This document shows, in pieces, positions 54,608 to 64,000 of a DNA stretch of 64,000 bases. This DNA is from Tolumonas osonensis (GTDB taxonomy: Bacteria > Pseudomonadota > Gammaproteobacteria > Enterobacterales > Aeromonadaceae). A program made the translations under genes and the position numbers. The notes under the pieces are model-generated. The model worked only from the letters and a program-made list of their open reading frames with translations. It was not told where the DNA came from and made no database searches. Each line of letters opens with the position of its first letter. The first letter of the stretch is position 1. Where the stretch lies: positions 1 to 64,000 of the forward strand of contig NZ_JACHGR010000003.1 in assembly GCF_014202415.1 (NCBI RefSeq). The letters are read 5' to 3'.

Positions 54608-54907
54608 ATGTTGGATCAAACCCTGACTTCTGAGGCACTGGTAACCACCGTCACTCACGCACAAACTCATCAACCTGTTCAGCGTCCACTGCGTGACTCC
54701 GTACAGCAGGCTTTACGTAACTATCTGGCGCAACTGAACGGTCAGGACGTTACTGAACTGTACGATATGGTTCTGAGCGAAGTTGAAGCCCCAATGCTCG
54801 ACATTATCATGCAGTACACCCGTGGTAACCAGACCCGTGCTGCAATCATGATGGGTATCAACCGCGGTACACTGCGCAAGAAACTGAAAAAATACGGCAT
54901 GAACTAA
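54608..54907 (+). CDS. fis: DNA-binding protein Fis
   Basis: 99-aa nucleoid-associated factor. C-terminal helix-turn-helix [29 protein letters not shown], nearly identical to E. coli Fis (98 aa); N-terminal beta-hairpin region needed for Hin/Gin stimulation is present. Activates rRNA/tRNA promoters and shapes the chromosome during fast growth. Confidence 0.98.
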
Positions 54908-54932
54908 TAGCTCTTCGCTAGTTCATTGAAAT

Positions 54933-54968
54933 AAAAGGCATTTTCCTTTATTGGTTAGTGCCTTTTTG
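54933..54968 (+). terminator. Terminator of dusB-fis
   Basis: AAAAGGCA/TGCCTTTT with a long loop, ending in TTTTTG. It is the last feature before the CRISPR array. Confidence 0.65.
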
Positions 54969-55035
54969 TTTTCCAGTGATACACCTAGTGATATACGATG
55001 AGATCTGTCTGCCATTTTTGCGGAATTTTAGCTCT

Positions 55036-55063
55036 TGCTCACCTCCACAGATGTGGGGACGAC
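55036..55063 (-). repeat. Degenerate terminal CRISPR repeat
   Basis: In register (61 bp before the first perfect repeat). It differs from the consensus at 8 of 28 positions: the first four bases and positions 9, 14, 16 and 17. The last 11 bases (GTGGGGACGAC on the plus strand, less one) are intact. A decayed last repeat marks the leader-distal end. Confidence 0.85.
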
Positions 55064-55795
55064 CACTCCACCAGATACGCGAACCCGCCGATGTCGGAAA
55101 CACCCCCACGGGCGTGGGGACGACGCCCACACCCCGGCATTCGAACCGTTGTTCCAGGAAACACCCCCACGGGCGTGGGGACGACTTCAGTGTCACCCGT
55201 TCATCGGTGATCAGCTCAGAAACACCCCCACGGGCGTGGGGACGACCAAGGCATTGTAAGGCGTGATAACGGTTTGTGGGAAACACCCCCACGGGCGTGG
55301 GGACGACAGATAGCTTATTTATGCGTAACTTATTAAATTAGAAACACCCCCACGGGCGTGGGGACGACCCGATTGATGATTTCCTGTCTGTTAGTTGGTA
55401 AGAAACACCCCCACGGGCGTGGGGACGACCGAATAATATAACATCCAGTATCCCGACATCGAGAAACACCCCCACGGGCGTGGGGACGACTCATCATCTG
55501 AGAAATCAGGATCAATTTCATAAGAAACACCCCCACGGGCGTGGGGACGACTCGTTCTGAGGGTTAATATGACGCCCGAAGCTGGAAACACCCCCACGGG
55601 CGTGGGGACGACTGGATAGCTCCAATCTCTTCAGATGTCAATCGGGAAACACCCCCACGGGCGTGGGGACGACCCTGCTGGAGAAGGAATACCGCCATGA
55701 GTGACAGAAACACCCCCACGGGCGTGGGGACGACCGCACTCAATCAGACAGGCATGACAGATTACGAGAAACACCCCCACGGGCGTGGGGACGAC

Positions 55796-55828
55796 CTAAG
55801 ATCAAAACGCTCACAGATCCGCGCTATG
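55796..55828 (-). other. Spacer related to spacer 56284-56316
   Basis: 33-bp spacer identical to the one at 56284-56316 except for three adjacent bases (GCG here, TTT there). Read on the minus strand both encode I-x-RICERFDL, x being Ala here and Glu in the other. Confidence 0.9.
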
Positions 55829-56283
55829 GAAACACCCCCACGGGCGTGGGGACGACAAATCGATTTTAGCTTTACCCGCTAGGATAGCGGAAACACCCCC
55901 ACGGGCGTGGGGACGACGTTTCACCAATCTCTTGTTCACCTGTGAATTGAGAAACACCCCCACGGGCGTGGGGACGACCGCGCTGTTCATCCGTGTATTC
56001 AATGGTTTGCAGAAACACCCCCACGGGCGTGGGGACGACGCTTACCAGATGGGTGCGGATGGCCTCGCTAAAGAAACACCCCCACGGGCGTGGGGACGAC
56101 ATCCGAATATAACATAATCTGGATGTTATATTAGAAACACCCCCACGGGCGTGGGGACGACCTTGAATATGAAGCGAATTCAAAACGTGACCCAGAAACA
56201 CCCCCACGGGCGTGGGGACGACGCATACTAACGCCGGTTCCGTCTGCTTGCAATAGAAACACCCCCACGGGCGTGGGGACGAC

Positions 56284-56316
56284 CTAAGATCAAAACGCTC
56301 ACAGATCCTTTCTATG
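56284..56316 (-). other. Spacer related to spacer 55796-55828
   Basis: Near-duplicate of the spacer eight units to the left. The three differing bases fall at crRNA positions 6-8 if the array is transcribed on the minus strand. Confidence 0.9.
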
Positions 56317-57425
56317 GAAACACCCCCACGGGCGTGGGGACGACGGCCTTTTACCGTAGGAATGCAAGCATGACTCAGAAACACCCCCACGGGCGTGGGG
56401 ACGACCAAGATGTGGCTGATCATGGAGCATCATGTGGAGAAACACCCCCACGGGCGTGGGGACGACGGAGGTGGCTATCGAGTAACAAAGAAGGATCGAG
56501 AAACACCCCCACGGGCGTGGGGACGACCTGTCGCCTTCTCCTTGGTCTGCCCGCGCGGTAGAAACACCCCCACGGGCGTGGGGACGACTCATAGGGGCAC
56601 TGATAGCGGGCTACAAAGGGAGAAACACCCCCACGGGCGTGGGGACGACATTGCCGTGGGTACTGGCTCCGCTACCGCGATGGAAACACCCCCACGGGCG
56701 TGGGGACGACATATTCTTACATCCCAGTCAGCAAGCGGATCTCGAAACACCCCCACGGGCGTGGGGACGACGTTATTGCTCGTCGCAATCATCTGTGCGT
56801 AAGAGAAACACCCCCACGGGCGTGGGGACGACGATAGAAAATCTCGGGCACGTTGGCTTGAAAAAGAAACACCCCCACGGGCGTGGGGACGACTTTGGCT
56901 TTCGCATCGGCCCCAAGGATGCGCCAGAAACACCCCCACGGGCGTGGGGACGACCATTTTGCGATGTCCATCCAGCCGCGAGGAAGGGAAACACCCCCAC
57001 GGGCGTGGGGACGACTTCCGGCTCAAGCGGAAAACAAAAAGCCAGCCAGAAACACCCCCACGGGCGTGGGGACGACCCAAAGCAGAGACAACCACTCAGG
57101 CGTCATATAGAAACACCCCCACGGGCGTGGGGACGACGTGCAGACAATACCAATGATGATCGCCCAGTCAGAAACACCCCCACGGGCGTGGGGACGACCC
57201 ATTGTGCAAGCATCTGCTTGGCTTCTTTTTGGAAACACCCCCACGGGCGTGGGGACGACTCGTTGCGTCGTGTGTCGCGCTTCGATGAGTTAGAAACACC
57301 CCCACGGGCGTGGGGACGACGAACGGTGACTTATCCAGAAAGACTTTGCCGTAGAAACACCCCCACGGGCGTGGGGACGACAGGAGAATCTTTTTCATTT
57401 TTAATGAACATACAGAATGTAGCGG

Positions 57426-58588
<1,163 letters not shown>

Positions 58589-58989
58589 GGAACACCTCTT
58601 TCTTTGGTGGAGACTTTACCACCTTAAATGGTGTCCGGGTTCATTAAACCACTACAGAAACACCCCCACGGGCGTGGGGACGACCGAGGTGATGCTATGA
58701 AGTGCTACGCCAATCTGGAAACACCCCCACGGGCGTGGGGACGACCTTCTATCCCTGCTACCCTGATCCGCGCCGTTGGAAACACCCCCACGGGCGTGGG
58801 GACGACTTGGCAGAGATATTGCATAAGACTTTTATAGGAGAAACACCCCCACGGGCGTGGGGACGACCGTCTCAGGATAACCCTGAGAGCGTTCTTTGAA
58901 GAAACACCCCCACGGGCGTGGGGACGACGGTGTGATGACGATCTAGAAAAAGTTGCTTATAGAAACACCCCCACGGGCGTGGGGACGAC

Positions 58990-59022
58990 AAACGAGTACA
59001 GCACCAATAAGCATCCCCGTAA
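58990..59022 (-). other. Spacer related to spacer 60027-60059
   Basis: Shares 28 of 33 bases with 60027-60059. On the minus strand it reads TGMLIGAVLV against TEMLIGVALV, a hydrophobic segment of what is presumably one phage protein family. Confidence 0.85.
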
Positions 59023-59050
59023 GAAACACCCCCACGGGCGTGGGGACGAC

Positions 59051-59083
59051 GAAATGCTCATAAGATGATTTAAGTCCGCCTTG
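59051..59083 (-). other. Spacer homologous to 62040-62072 on the opposite strand
   Basis: Read on the minus strand it encodes QGGLKSSYEHF. The spacer at 62040-62072, read on the plus strand, encodes QGGLKSSYD with different codons. Confidence 0.8.
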
Positions 59084-60026
59084 GAAACACCCCCACGGGC
59101 GTGGGGACGACTTCACTAACAGATATTCGAGACGGTGTAGCATAGAAACACCCCCACGGGCGTGGGGACGACTCATGAATGGGATTATGTATCCTGCCGA
59201 TGAAGGAAACACCCCCACGGGCGTGGGGACGACGTGTTGTCGTTGATGACCATCTGGTCATAGACAGAAACACCCCCACGGGCGTGGGGACGACTGATTG
59301 GCAACAAAGTTGTCACGGCTAGTCGCGGAAACACCCCCACGGGCGTGGGGACGACAATTTAACTTTGCCAGATCGGAAAGATCTTTCAGAAACACCCCCA
59401 CGGGCGTGGGGACGACTAAGAATAACCAAAGCAGGAGCTGTAATTGTAAGAAACACCCCCACGGGCGTGGGGACGACTCTTTGTAGCTGCTGCTAAGCTC
59501 TTTCTATCGGGAAACACCCCCACGGGCGTGGGGACGACTATATTCTGGGAATAAATACTCCGTCTTATAAAGAAACACCCCCACGGGCGTGGGGACGACT
59601 TCCTTTTCCAGCCCACTCACCTGCAATAATGAGAAACACCCCCACGGGCGTGGGGACGACCCCTTATGTAAAGGTCTATTAAACTCTTGCTAAGAAACAC
59701 CCCCACGGGCGTGGGGACGACCATTTCTTTTCGATGTGTAACTTAATATCTTTAGAAACACCCCCACGGGCGTGGGGACGACAATACAATCGGCGGGAAA
59801 TTGATGCAGGAAGGGGAAACACCCCCACGGGCGTGGGGACGACTTATGAGCATTTCCAAGAAATCCCGACGTTAGAGAAACACCCCCACGGGCGTGGGGA
59901 CGACGTCAACCAACGCGAGGTCTGTAACATGAAAGCAGAAACACCCCCACGGGCGTGGGGACGACGCAACAAAGAAACAAGATCGCCCGTGTGGACCAGA
60001 AACACCCCCACGGGCGTGGGGACGAC

Positions 60027-60059
60027 AAACGAGCGCAACACCAATAAGCATCTCCGTAG
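60027..60059 (-). other. Spacer related to spacer 58990-59022
   Basis: Partner of the spacer at 58990. The differences from it alter four bases inside codons plus the edge base. Confidence 0.85.
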
Positions 60060-62039
60060 GAAACACCCCCACGGGCGTGGGGACGACCGACGGGCACTGA
60101 CCCGATCACTAACCTCCCGGGAAACACCCCCACGGGCGTGGGGACGACCTTACTTTAAGAATTTAAGGAGGATAAAATGAAGAAACACCCCCACGGGCGT
60201 GGGGACGACGCCCTGATTACCTGTGCTAACTTCTTGCTGTCGGAAACACCCCCACGGGCGTGGGGACGACGTAAAGGTATCGGCCAGATGATGCAGGAGG
60301 CCAGAAACACCCCCACGGGCGTGGGGACGACCATCGGAGCCTAATATCTGGTCAGTTCCAGTGGGAAACACCCCCACGGGCGTGGGGACGACCAGAGCGC
60401 TATACGCTGGGGAAAGGTCATGTGAGAAACACCCCCACGGGCGTGGGGACGACTCCGTGAAACTAAAGCAGCCAAAGCAGTAAAAGGAAACACCCCCACG
60501 GGCGTGGGGACGACGCAAATGATAAATAGTATAAAGTAACTTATCTAGAAACACCCCCACGGGCGTGGGGACGACAACATAGAAGCGATGAAATGTAAAG
60601 AAATATAAGAAACACCCCCACGGGCGTGGGGACGACGAAGGTTTTCATTTTCAGCTCACTTTGTTGATGGAAACACCCCCACGGGCGTGGGGACGACCCG
60701 TGATGATGACACAATGTCGGTTTCAACCCAGAAACACCCCCACGGGCGTGGGGACGACTCTGTGCTACAAAGAAAGATGCCAAGTGGTTGAGAAACACCC
60801 CCACGGGCGTGGGGACGACTTGTTATCGTTGCCTCTGGCCCCGCTCCTGTGAGAAACACCCCCACGGGCGTGGGGACGACCTGATGACTTCTTTGTGATC
60901 TTCTGCGCGCAGAGAAACACCCCCACGGGCGTGGGGACGACTAACCAAGCCAAGATCCTGCGCTTGCTGCATCAGAAACACCCCCACGGGCGTGGGGACG
61001 ACAACTGCACTGGCATTAAACATGGCGCTGGCTGAGAAACACCCCCACGGGCGTGGGGACGACAGAATTTATTAAAAATAACAATCTCATCAACGAGAAA
61101 CACCCCCACGGGCGTGGGGACGACACAACTAAGCAGCTCTGATCAGCGGCTTTTTTAGAAACACCCCCACGGGCGTGGGGACGACCCAGATGAAGACCAC
61201 TGGTGGCACGAATACGAAGAAACACCCCCACGGGCGTGGGGACGACCGTATTTTGACTGACCAAAATCAGGCAGATCCAGAAACACCCCCACGGGCGTGG
61301 GGACGACCTGTTTTCAAGCCTTCCTGAAGCATTACTTTAAGAAACACCCCCACGGGCGTGGGGACGACATAATCCGGCCATTACACGGTTGATGCCAGTG
61401 GGAAACACCCCCACGGGCGTGGGGACGACCGAGAACCACGACAACCACAAAAAAGGCTTCGGGAAACACCCCCACGGGCGTGGGGACGACACTGGCCCAT
61501 GCCGACATATACGCCAGCACCAAGAAACACCCCCACGGGCGTGGGGACGACGACATGACCATCAAAGCGCGCGGCACCTCAGCGGAAACACCCCCACGGG
61601 CGTGGGGACGACATCGACAAACAGCAACGGCACGACATGGCGCAAGAAACACCCCCACGGGCGTGGGGACGACAATTTACTGCTATCAGAACATCTTCTG
61701 GCTGAAGAAACACCCCCACGGGCGTGGGGACGACCATATGTTTTTGTAAAGTCTGAAGTTTTTAATGGAAACACCCCCACGGGCGTGGGGACGACTATGC
61801 CTAACTGCACTTTGCACTTCTTCCGCCAGAAACACCCCCACGGGCGTGGGGACGACCCATTTTCAACGTACGCAAGGTTGAACCTCATAGAAACACCCCC
61901 ACGGGCGTGGGGACGACGGAAGTCCCTTTTCCGTCAGAGGATCAAAAAGAGAAACACCCCCACGGGCGTGGGGACGACTGGCACCGCGTTTACTACGTAC
62001 ACATCAGGTGGGAAACACCCCCACGGGCGTGGGGACGAC

Positions 62040-62072
62040 CAAACAAGGTGGCTTAAAATCATCTTATGATCA
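62040..62072 (+). other. Spacer homologous to 59051-59083 on the opposite strand
   Basis: Read on the plus strand it contains GGC-TTA-AAA-TCA-TCT-TAT-GAT; the partner has GGA-CTT-AAA-TCA-TCT-TAT-GAG. Same peptide apart from Asp/Glu. Confidence 0.8.
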
Positions 62073-64000
62073 GAAACACCCCCACGGGCGTGGGGACGAC
62101 ACGACCTTCGCCCAGGCGAAGAAGTCGGGACAAGAAACACCCCCACGGGCGTGGGGACGACTCTTTTTCTGCCTGTGCAGTGGCAGATTTAAGAGAAACA
62201 CCCCCACGGGCGTGGGGACGACCTGCCCACCAAGCTTATCCACTTCACTGATAAGGAAACACCCCCACGGGCGTGGGGACGACGTCCTGGTAATAACTTT
62301 TTAAGTCTTCGATCAGGAAACACCCCCACGGGCGTGGGGACGACCAAGACGGTAGCCAATAGAAAGACCTGTGATAGGAAACACCCCCACGGGCGTGGGG
62401 ACGACGCACTTCTGGATCTGCGTTGTAGTGCATAGCCAGAAACACCCCCACGGGCGTGGGGACGACTTCAGATCCATCCATACTTCTGGTGTCCTGAAAG
62501 AAACACCCCCACGGGCGTGGGGACGACCGATTGCTGTACCGGAGTCATTGATTGCTCAAGGAAACACCCCCACGGGCGTGGGGACGACGAGGGCCGCGAA
62601 CCTGTCCAACTTCATCAAGAAGAAACACCCCCACGGGCGTGGGGACGACTAATCGCTTACCAGATGGAACAATACGCACCAAGAAACACCCCCACGGGCG
62701 TGGGGACGACTGCAGACTGCATCATGTTTAACACATGGATCAAGAAACACCCCCACGGGCGTGGGGACGACCGGGGGAACCAAAAAGAACTAGCAGGCCT
62801 ACTAGAAACACCCCCACGGGCGTGGGGACGACATAGTAACTCCTTAGCGCGTTTTGCTGACGCAAGAAACACCCCCACGGGCGTGGGGACGACCTTAAAA
62901 TGCAGCATAAAAACTTCACAGAATCAGAAACACCCCCACGGGCGTGGGGACGACCCGGTTATAGCAATATCAACAAGTGACGCTGAAGAAACACCCCCAC
63001 GGGCGTGGGGACGACCAACCCAAGCCCATCAACATCAAACGATTTAAAGAAACACCCCCACGGGCGTGGGGACGACTTGCCTTTCTTATCAAATATAAAG
63101 AATCATTAGGAAACACCCCCACGGGCGTGGGGACGACACGGGAATTACAGGCTAGCCAATCATATGCTAAGAAACACCCCCACGGGCGTGGGGACGACGT
63201 TTTCAGGGTCATAGTTTTCATGATATCACCGGAAACACCCCCACGGGCGTGGGGACGACTAGTCAAAAACCTTACTAACGAAATGTTTTCAAGAAACACC
63301 CCCACGGGCGTGGGGACGACTTCGTCGATAGCCTTGCGCATGACATCGCGCAGGAAACACCCCCACGGGCGTGGGGACGACTGAATGGTGAATAAGCTGT
63401 CCAGATGTGCCACGGAAACACCCCCACGGGCGTGGGGACGACTGCTACAGATATTGCCAGCAAGTCGTTGGGCGAGAAACACCCCCACGGGCGTGGGGAC
63501 GACGCGGCCAAGGCATGGTGAATTCATAGTCACTCAGAAACACCCCCACGGGCGTGGGGACGACTCATTGATTAACCTGCTTTTTAATGGTCATATAGAA
63601 ACACCCCCACGGGCGTGGGGACGACTGGAATGGGAAGCGATAGCCGGTAGACGGGAAGGAAACACCCCCACGGGCGTGGGGACGACCAAGGTGGCACAAT
63701 TTACCAGGCTCTGCAAGAAGAAACACCCCCACGGGCGTGGGGACGACGGATTATATCATTGTTGATACTAAAACCGGTAGGAAACACCCCCACGGGCGTG
63801 GGGACGACTAATCTTCCAATTCGTAATGCATTAATGTTTTAAGAAACACCCCCACGGGCGTGGGGACGACCCCACAATAATGATCAACTTTTGCCCTCAG
63901 ATAGAAACACCCCCACGGGCGTGGGGACGACACTCTAGTGAAACAAACGCTGGAGAATATACAGGAAACACCCCCACGGGCGTGGGGACGACGAACTTAC

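Follow-up and report, generated by a model that had tools for sequence, protein, structure and literature searches.

The closest described relatives of the system analyzed here are the type I-E* clustered regularly interspaced short palindromic repeat (CRISPR)-Cas systems. The available text on the Klebsiella pneumoniae system (PMC12188710) describes a gene order with cas6e between cse2 and cas7, a repeat of the same family as the repeat reported here, and, unlike here, two arrays with 50 spacers in total in the strain studied; its chromosomal ABC-transport/glyoxalase site (PMC7301723) also differs from the site found here. The CRISPR1 locus of Serratia sp. Ag1 was described with 19 spacers (PMC10484321). 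Typical bacterial arrays have fewer than 50 spacers (PMC8047081), and arrays with more than 100 are known, the longest in CRISPRCasdb, as described, having 587 (PMC8047081, PMC7145573). The stretch analyzed here, referred to as the window, comprises positions 1 to 64,000 of contig NZ_JACHGR010000003.1 (C3:1-64000) of Tolumonas osonensis, whose 3.29-Mb genome is in 30 contigs (G000); parts to the right of the window are given in contig C3 numbering, which is continuous with the window (L004 coordinate + 63899). The right end of the window is occupied by a CRISPR array that continues to C3:65700 and is followed by type I-E cas genes. Judged from sequence, the locus is best read, with a probability of about 0.82, as an ordinary I-E* system that has an unusually long array and is carried on an integrative island at the host gene fis.

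The repeat, GAAACACCCCCACGGGCGTGGGGACGAC in plus-strand letters, occurred as 126 exact copies in the window, with starts from 55097 to 63965, and contig C3 contained 154 exact copies, the last of which started at 65673. The window part of the array (55097-64000, minus strand) therefore holds 126 of the 154 identical 28-nucleotide (nt) repeats. A degenerate terminal (trailer) repeat at 55036-55063 (minus strand, 8/28 mismatches) formed the array end beside fis and brought the window total to 127, in agreement with the original prediction of at least 127 repeats in an array running past the window. Allowing up to three mismatches, a search of the own genome again found 154 repeats, on one strand only among the matches listed. 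The reported absence of variation among full repeats was confirmed for the whole contig (154/154 identical, zero variants), as was the 61-bp period, which was found in 123/125 window intervals, the others being 62 bp (once) and 1303 bp (once, at an insertion sequence [IS]). Across the whole array, the intervals among the 154 repeats comprised 151 of 61 bp, one of 62 bp, and one of 1303 bp with the IS. All 154 spacers were distinct; 153 were 33 nt long and one was 34 nt long, counting the base derived from the protospacer-adjacent motif (PAM). No spacer was duplicated in the window, and the closest pair in the whole set differed at 3/33 positions. Such a regular repeat series is not a product of chance. 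A repetitive region in a 30-contig assembly invites the suspicion that repeats were expanded or collapsed, but the 154 different spacers, their regular spacing, and the continuation of the contig into other genes on both sides render an assembly artifact exceedingly improbable; expansion of the array is unlikely because every spacer differs, and some collapse is conceivable.

All eight type I-E cas genes adjoined on one strand just to the right of the array, in a predicted operon, which supports the subtype named in the original prediction. With open reading frame (ORF) starts used as listed, the minus-strand genes were, from the array outward, the following: cas2e (C3:65754-66035), cas1e (C3:66013-66882), cas5e (C3:66889-67611), cas7e (C3:67617-68690), cas6e (C3:68683-69417), cse2 (C3:69323-69889), cas8e (C3:69903-71426), and cas3 (C3:71430-74057). 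Each of the eight exceeded an NCBIfam cut-off (Cas3 cleared cas3_core and failed PRK09694), and the eight ORFs were uninterrupted, with the model match spanning most of each length. A WYL regulator gene (C3:74180-75055, minus strand) lay upstream of cas3, a same-strand position that it also occupies in Serratia Ag1 (80% identical) and Shewanella (54%). The leader was located at C3:65701-65753, so that both the leader and the total number of repeats (154), which the original prediction had sought on the full contig, were obtained. The 20 bases ahead of the first repeat were the same (20/20) in Serratia Ag1, and the leader end differed from the common motif at no more than 3/20 positions in 8/15 relatives; a perfect IHF consensus was not found in the last 200 bases ahead of the array. 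The leader and the cas2 side suggest leftward transcription of the array, from the minus strand. With the leader and the cas operon at the right, new spacers are therefore expected to enter there, beyond the window, and the fis side is expected to be old; the original coordinates, beginning at 55036, accordingly start at what would be the oldest end.

A Cas1 search returned 25 named loci, of which Serratia sp. Ag1 was the best (91%). The cas6e gene was placed between cse2 and cas7 here and in 26/27 relatives' loci, the exception being the Spirochaetales locus L031; the gene-order output did not show cas3 for L027 or cas2 for L032. Serratia Ag1 CRISPR1 (as described in PMC10484321) resembled the present locus in Cas1 and Cas7 (both 91% identical) and Cas8e (86%), and likewise in its 28-nt repeat, 33-nt spacers, gene order, and leader end, whereas its repeat differed by 2 bases and the fis core described below was not in the fetched locus, in which 20 repeats were counted up to the contig end. 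Because gene order, repeat, and Cas sequences agree, the system is assigned to the I-E* lineage of Klebsiella and Serratia Ag1. The 27 relatives' loci, several of which ended at contig ends, gave 20 parsable arrays; L011, L013, L020, and L025 (no repeat), L016 (an unrelated repeat only), and L029 and L031 (other repeats) were left out. Repeat numbers in the 20 loci included 151, 104, 93, and 75, and the repeats of the long arrays were nearly invariant (150/151, 102/104, and 93/93 identical). The 154-spacer array was the longest among the loci compared, and its length is unusual but no record and is in line with its own I-E* lineage. Since relatives' arrays reach 151, 104, and 93 nearly invariant repeats, its length and uniformity are high and not exceptional. 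The unusual length originally claimed thus stands against the usual array size and loses force beside the known arrays of more than 100 spacers and the relative with 151 repeats. Strong selection or recent growth, as originally suggested, does not follow from uniform repeats alone, the relatives' equally uniform arrays ruling out uniformity as proof of recent growth. Repeat uniformity is to be expected if the leader-proximal repeat serves as the template for every new one. A related I-E* array was also seen on the Enterobacter asburiae plasmid NZ_CP074179 (L073), with four spacers perfectly matching Ackermannviridae phages; in this plasmid, an IS21-type element lay between cas5e and cas6e, the expected place of cas7e, and no cas7e was annotated.

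The single IS expected from the original prediction was found at 57418-58656 (1239 bp, minus strand), with two ORFs (58588-58280 and 58271-57426) containing rve/HTH domains; we take it to be IS3-type from the general features of that family. It runs in the transcribed direction of the array and was the sole copy found in the own genome. It had a 3-bp target duplication, GAA, and had inserted into a repeat at a depth of 3 nt; owing to the duplication, one repeat remained complete, and the first of the trailer-side spacers had lost its upstream repeat except for 3 nt. Counted from the leader, 115 spacers preceded the IS and 39 followed it toward the trailer; the IS would split the array transcript at this point. 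The question raised originally about expression of promoter-distal spacers can be kept in a relocated form: the distal end is the left one, next to fis, with 39/154 spacers downstream of the IS, and the leader lies outside the window.

Read in the direction of transcription, the base immediately following the 28-nt repeat was T in 103 cases, C in 50, and G in 1, that is, a pyrimidine (Y) in 153/154, and the spacer positions after this 29th base were of mixed composition. T and C followed one another along the array without any pattern (72 runs vs 68 expected). A similar bias was present in the relatives (T 420, C 375, G 10, and A 5; Y in 795/810, with 9/819 odd-length intervals excluded) and in 13/13 spacers parsed from one record of the K. 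pneumoniae I-E* system. Relatives' spacers with protospacers at 0 to 1 mismatch in phages or plasmids had an AAY flank in 6/6 cases (AAT 4 and AAC 2); four of these spacers came from the Enterobacter plasmid array and two from arrays of a Klebsiella plasmid record, the comparison covering 11 stretches that had been fetched because the search had matched them. Because Y was near-invariant here and in the relatives and AAY accompanied all six of the relatives' protospacers, the 29th base probably records the PAM. A published table of I-E PAMs already lists AAC, AAT, AAG, and AAN (Klebsiella), among others, and AAY is therefore a refinement and no new PAM class.

Spacer pairs with a common 13-mer numbered six, vs 0.16 expected and a maximum of 3 in 300 simulated sets. 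Two pairs were variants of one protospacer (30/33 identical in one and 28/32 aligned positions in the other), and the spacers at 56284 and 55796 were the same except for a block of three neighboring bases close to the PAM end, a place in which seed mutations would aid phage escape. The spacers of one further pair lay on opposite strands with an overlap of 13 nt, and the same place was represented, in diverged form, by a third spacer. These pairs suggest repeated contact with related invaders during the history of the array.

The array and the cas genes lay inside an island of 24.8 kb that was bounded on each side by an 83-bp copy of the fis 3' end, a placement beyond what the original prediction could see. 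The host gene fis (54608-54907, plus strand) encoded a product that shared 68% identity with annotated E. coli Fis across 99 residues, and its 3' end was the integration site. The left attachment site, attL, consisting of the fis 3' end and terminator (54891-54973, plus strand), was identical to attR (C3:79654-79736) at 79/83 positions and contained the core TACGGCATGAACTAA at 54893; at up to three mismatches, this core occurred in two places in C3:50000-90000, and none was internal. The fis 3' ends of five relatives matched the contig twice, at fis itself and at about 79654-79730 past the integrase gene, and fis gave a single match in each of the 8 genus relatives searched (of 10). Direct repeats GTGATACAC / GTGATATAC at 54976-54996 (plus strand), with two further GTGATACAC copies near attR (C3:79495 and C3:79507), are putative arm-type sites of the integrase. 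Between the WYL gene and attR, all on the minus strand, were genes for a replication-O-like protein (C3:76386-76880, weak match), AlpA (C3:77041-77226, with 46% identity to an E. coli AlpA across just 39 residues), a 305-amino-acid (aa) protein (C3:77292-78209), and an inward-facing P4-type integrase (C3:78247-79470). Apart from the integrase and AlpA, the I-E* operon and the array took up most of the island. In the six ORFs scanned in this part, no late or packaging gene family and no primase, SSB, or DUF5906 replication zone was found, the weak replication-O-like match being the only one of that kind. Rfam gave no match over the integrase/AlpA part, and a tRNA as integration site was rejected, as L004 contained no tRNA. 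DNA of cas1, the cas2 end, and the leader had no match in 10/10 genus relatives, several of them incomplete; cas8e of the island was found in 1/75 family genomes, its own, and relatives of Cas8e were not found in IMG/VR. A second integrase gene of this genome (G000:C1:378393-379607, L087) was 80% identical and stood at a terminator-like site, not a fis end.

Homologous integrases were found beside a copy of the fis end in 3/4 other family genomes (G055, G058, and G071 but not G009), with the true fis 7.8 to 13.6 kb from the copy. The G058 element had 305-aa and O-like proteins in common with the island, and no cas8e was found in the G058 genome; its fis-side cargo (L088 12601-14133) included an ImmA/IrrE-HTH protein, for which the best PADLOC models were RmrA, and a second protein whose PIN match fell short of the Pfam cut-off. 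The fis-site elements of G055 and G071 (L090 and L092) were about 13 kb long and had similar replication-type proteins; a 545-aa protein of L090 matched phrog_601 (unknown function), and a similar ORF was present in L092. Outside the family, an integrase DNA match was present in 24/5426 E. coli genomes. In the two E. coli regions looked at, the integrase gene adjoined yhdJ with the fis core just ahead of it; fis and dusB were annotated at the opposite end of one region, and the other stretch stopped earlier. The 305-aa protein did not match the DUF6387 protein beside the E. coli fis-core integrase. In IMG/VR, a homologous integrase lay beside a fis-end copy in 2/7 loci.

These elements bear on an alternative in which two insertions occurred, a decayed fis-site element and a CRISPR-Cas locus that arrived via another route, the two never moving together. 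The fis-site element would then consist of the integrase, AlpA, and replication-like genes and attR, with CRISPR-Cas between attL and these genes. The G+C content of 0.39 in the integrase part, vs 0.50 in the cas part, would fit such a history, as would the fis core (at up to one mismatch) being found in 0/27 relatives' loci, which are partial, and the presence of related I-E* systems on plasmids and chromosomes with no match to the island integrase in the stretch examined. However, arm-like repeats flanked both sides, the left pair only 40 bp from the terminal CRISPR repeat, there was no internal fis core, and the G055, G058, and G071 elements had tandem repeats of varying sequence at the same left-end place. 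The array therefore seems to be enclosed by the ends of the element itself, and two separate insertions are considered rather unlikely.

Several observations weigh against an ordinary I-E* system on an integrative island. The attL and attR sites differed at 4/83 bases, and the mobility of the island may therefore be lost. The leader motif differed at 7/20 or more positions in 7/15 relatives. The AAY motif was drawn from relatives and few spacers; two weaker matches of relatives' spacers had, by eye, AAT (5 mismatches) and CAC (2 mismatches), and in K. pneumoniae type I-E, AAG was described as the most frequent PAM (PMC7301723). No convincing protospacer of the present array was found in phages, plasmids, genus and family genomes, or IMG/VR. 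The whole array, in three queries each, gave a best E of about 2 against phages and E values up to 1 against plasmids among the matches listed; three plasmid records had at least 40 match pieces each time, and two of the plasmid records looked at were I-E* arrays themselves. One of the three array parts, compared with the genomes of 10 members of the genus and 64 of the family, gave no convincing target, and five exact or degenerate IMG/VR patterns gave 0 matches. The genus search had two weak matches (E 0.002), one without an ungapped match at up to 9 mismatches, whereas the other, aligned without gaps, had 9 mismatches and lacked AA. Among four weak phage matches that covered the full spacer length (4 to 7 mismatches, E 2 to 9), an AA flank was present in two: s120 (Salmonella phage, 5 mismatches) and s119 (Erwinia phage, 7 mismatches) had AA, and s23 (Aeromonas phage, 5 mismatches, GC) and s36 did not. 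Spacer s36 (63504) matched the RuvC-type resolvase gene of Vibrio phage ValSw3-3 over its full length with 4/33 mismatches and flank TG, and this match may hint at the type of phage that the array recorded. Spacer s100 matched a Novosphingobium plasmid with 9 mismatches and flank TC. Reversed spacers gave 12 to 14 mismatches, which is no fair chance level because the search itself had picked the loci. The Serratia Ag1 array likewise had no match in phages. The lone match in a family genome (G046) was on the repeat and not on a spacer; this orphan repeat (L094 1507-1534; G046:C1 about 2216407) had the relatives' GTCTTC form, 1 base from the present repeat, and lay beside what by eye were apparently duplicated tRNA 3' ends, perhaps as a collapsed array.

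The IS within the array and the lack of a convincing current target in phages and plasmids would also fit a relic, in which array and cas genes were kept while expression and acquisition were lost. Such decay is quite unlikely in view of the eight open cas ORFs with models matched over most of their length, the identity of all internal repeats, and the leader end shared with Serratia Ag1. In the favored reading, an ordinary I-E* system on an integrative island, recombination by the integrase would have joined the attP of the island to the fis 3' end without disrupting fis. Cas1-Cas2 would have taken up AAY-flanked fragments and added them one by one at the leader end; copying of the repeat at each insertion would account for the uniform repeats, with Y kept as the 29th repeat base. 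The leftward array transcript would be cut by Cas6e and loaded on Cascade, which together with Cas3 would act on DNA carrying AAY. The great length would be in keeping with spacers having been taken again and again from the same invaders and seldom lost.

A very long array is a natural record of the encounters of a lineage, and with such a record inside an integrative island, the whole memory could pass horizontally. In addition, the near-invariant Y, together with the relatives' AAY protospacers, may allow cheap PAM reading for arrays whose targets are unknown. The fis site and the integration module raise the question of whether satellite-type islands can carry large defense systems despite capsid limits. 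In the available text of PMC9122126, E. coli P2-like phages and P4-like satellites were described as having only short defense systems and no CRISPR-Cas, which was attributed to capsid size. A bolder proposal, that a fis-site phage-satellite lineage swapped its late genes for complete 154-spacer CRISPR immunity and still moves, would run contrary to that remark and, if true, would describe a mobile immune record passed between hosts and built against rival phages; we regard it as doubtful. The literature on phage satellites with CRISPR-Cas, as far as it was available, included no title on CRISPR-Cas carried by a fis-site satellite, which is no proof of absence.

Two known kinds of island invite direct comparison. 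The fis-site phage-inducible chromosomal islands (PICIs), as described in PMC10111431, resemble the present island in the att core TACGGCATGAACTAA, in having integrase and AlpA genes, and in the inward orientation of the integrase, and an E. coli integrase encoded next to the fis core shared 50% identity with that of the island. Unlike the PICIs as described there, the island had no recognized Bro-zone, primase, or late genes, and its CRISPR-Cas locus occupies the end next to fis, the position of the late zone in PICIs; in the text of PMC10111431, "CRISPR" occurs once, inside a reference title. Sequence comparison thus indicates that the island shares the site and the integration module of fis-site PICIs, and it is not classed as a PICI because Bro, primase, and late genes were unrecognized. 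Vibrio cholerae GI-24, likened here by published description (PMC6360697), is an integrase island with attL and attR whose type I-E system shows the same variant order of cas genes; it excises at a low rate as detected by polymerase chain reaction and has a PAM written 3' NTT 5'. In contrast to the island at fis, GI-24 is described as 17 kb long, lies between VC0289 and VC0290, and has arrays of 2 to 80 spacers. Through GI-24, CRISPR-Cas on an island is already known in kind.

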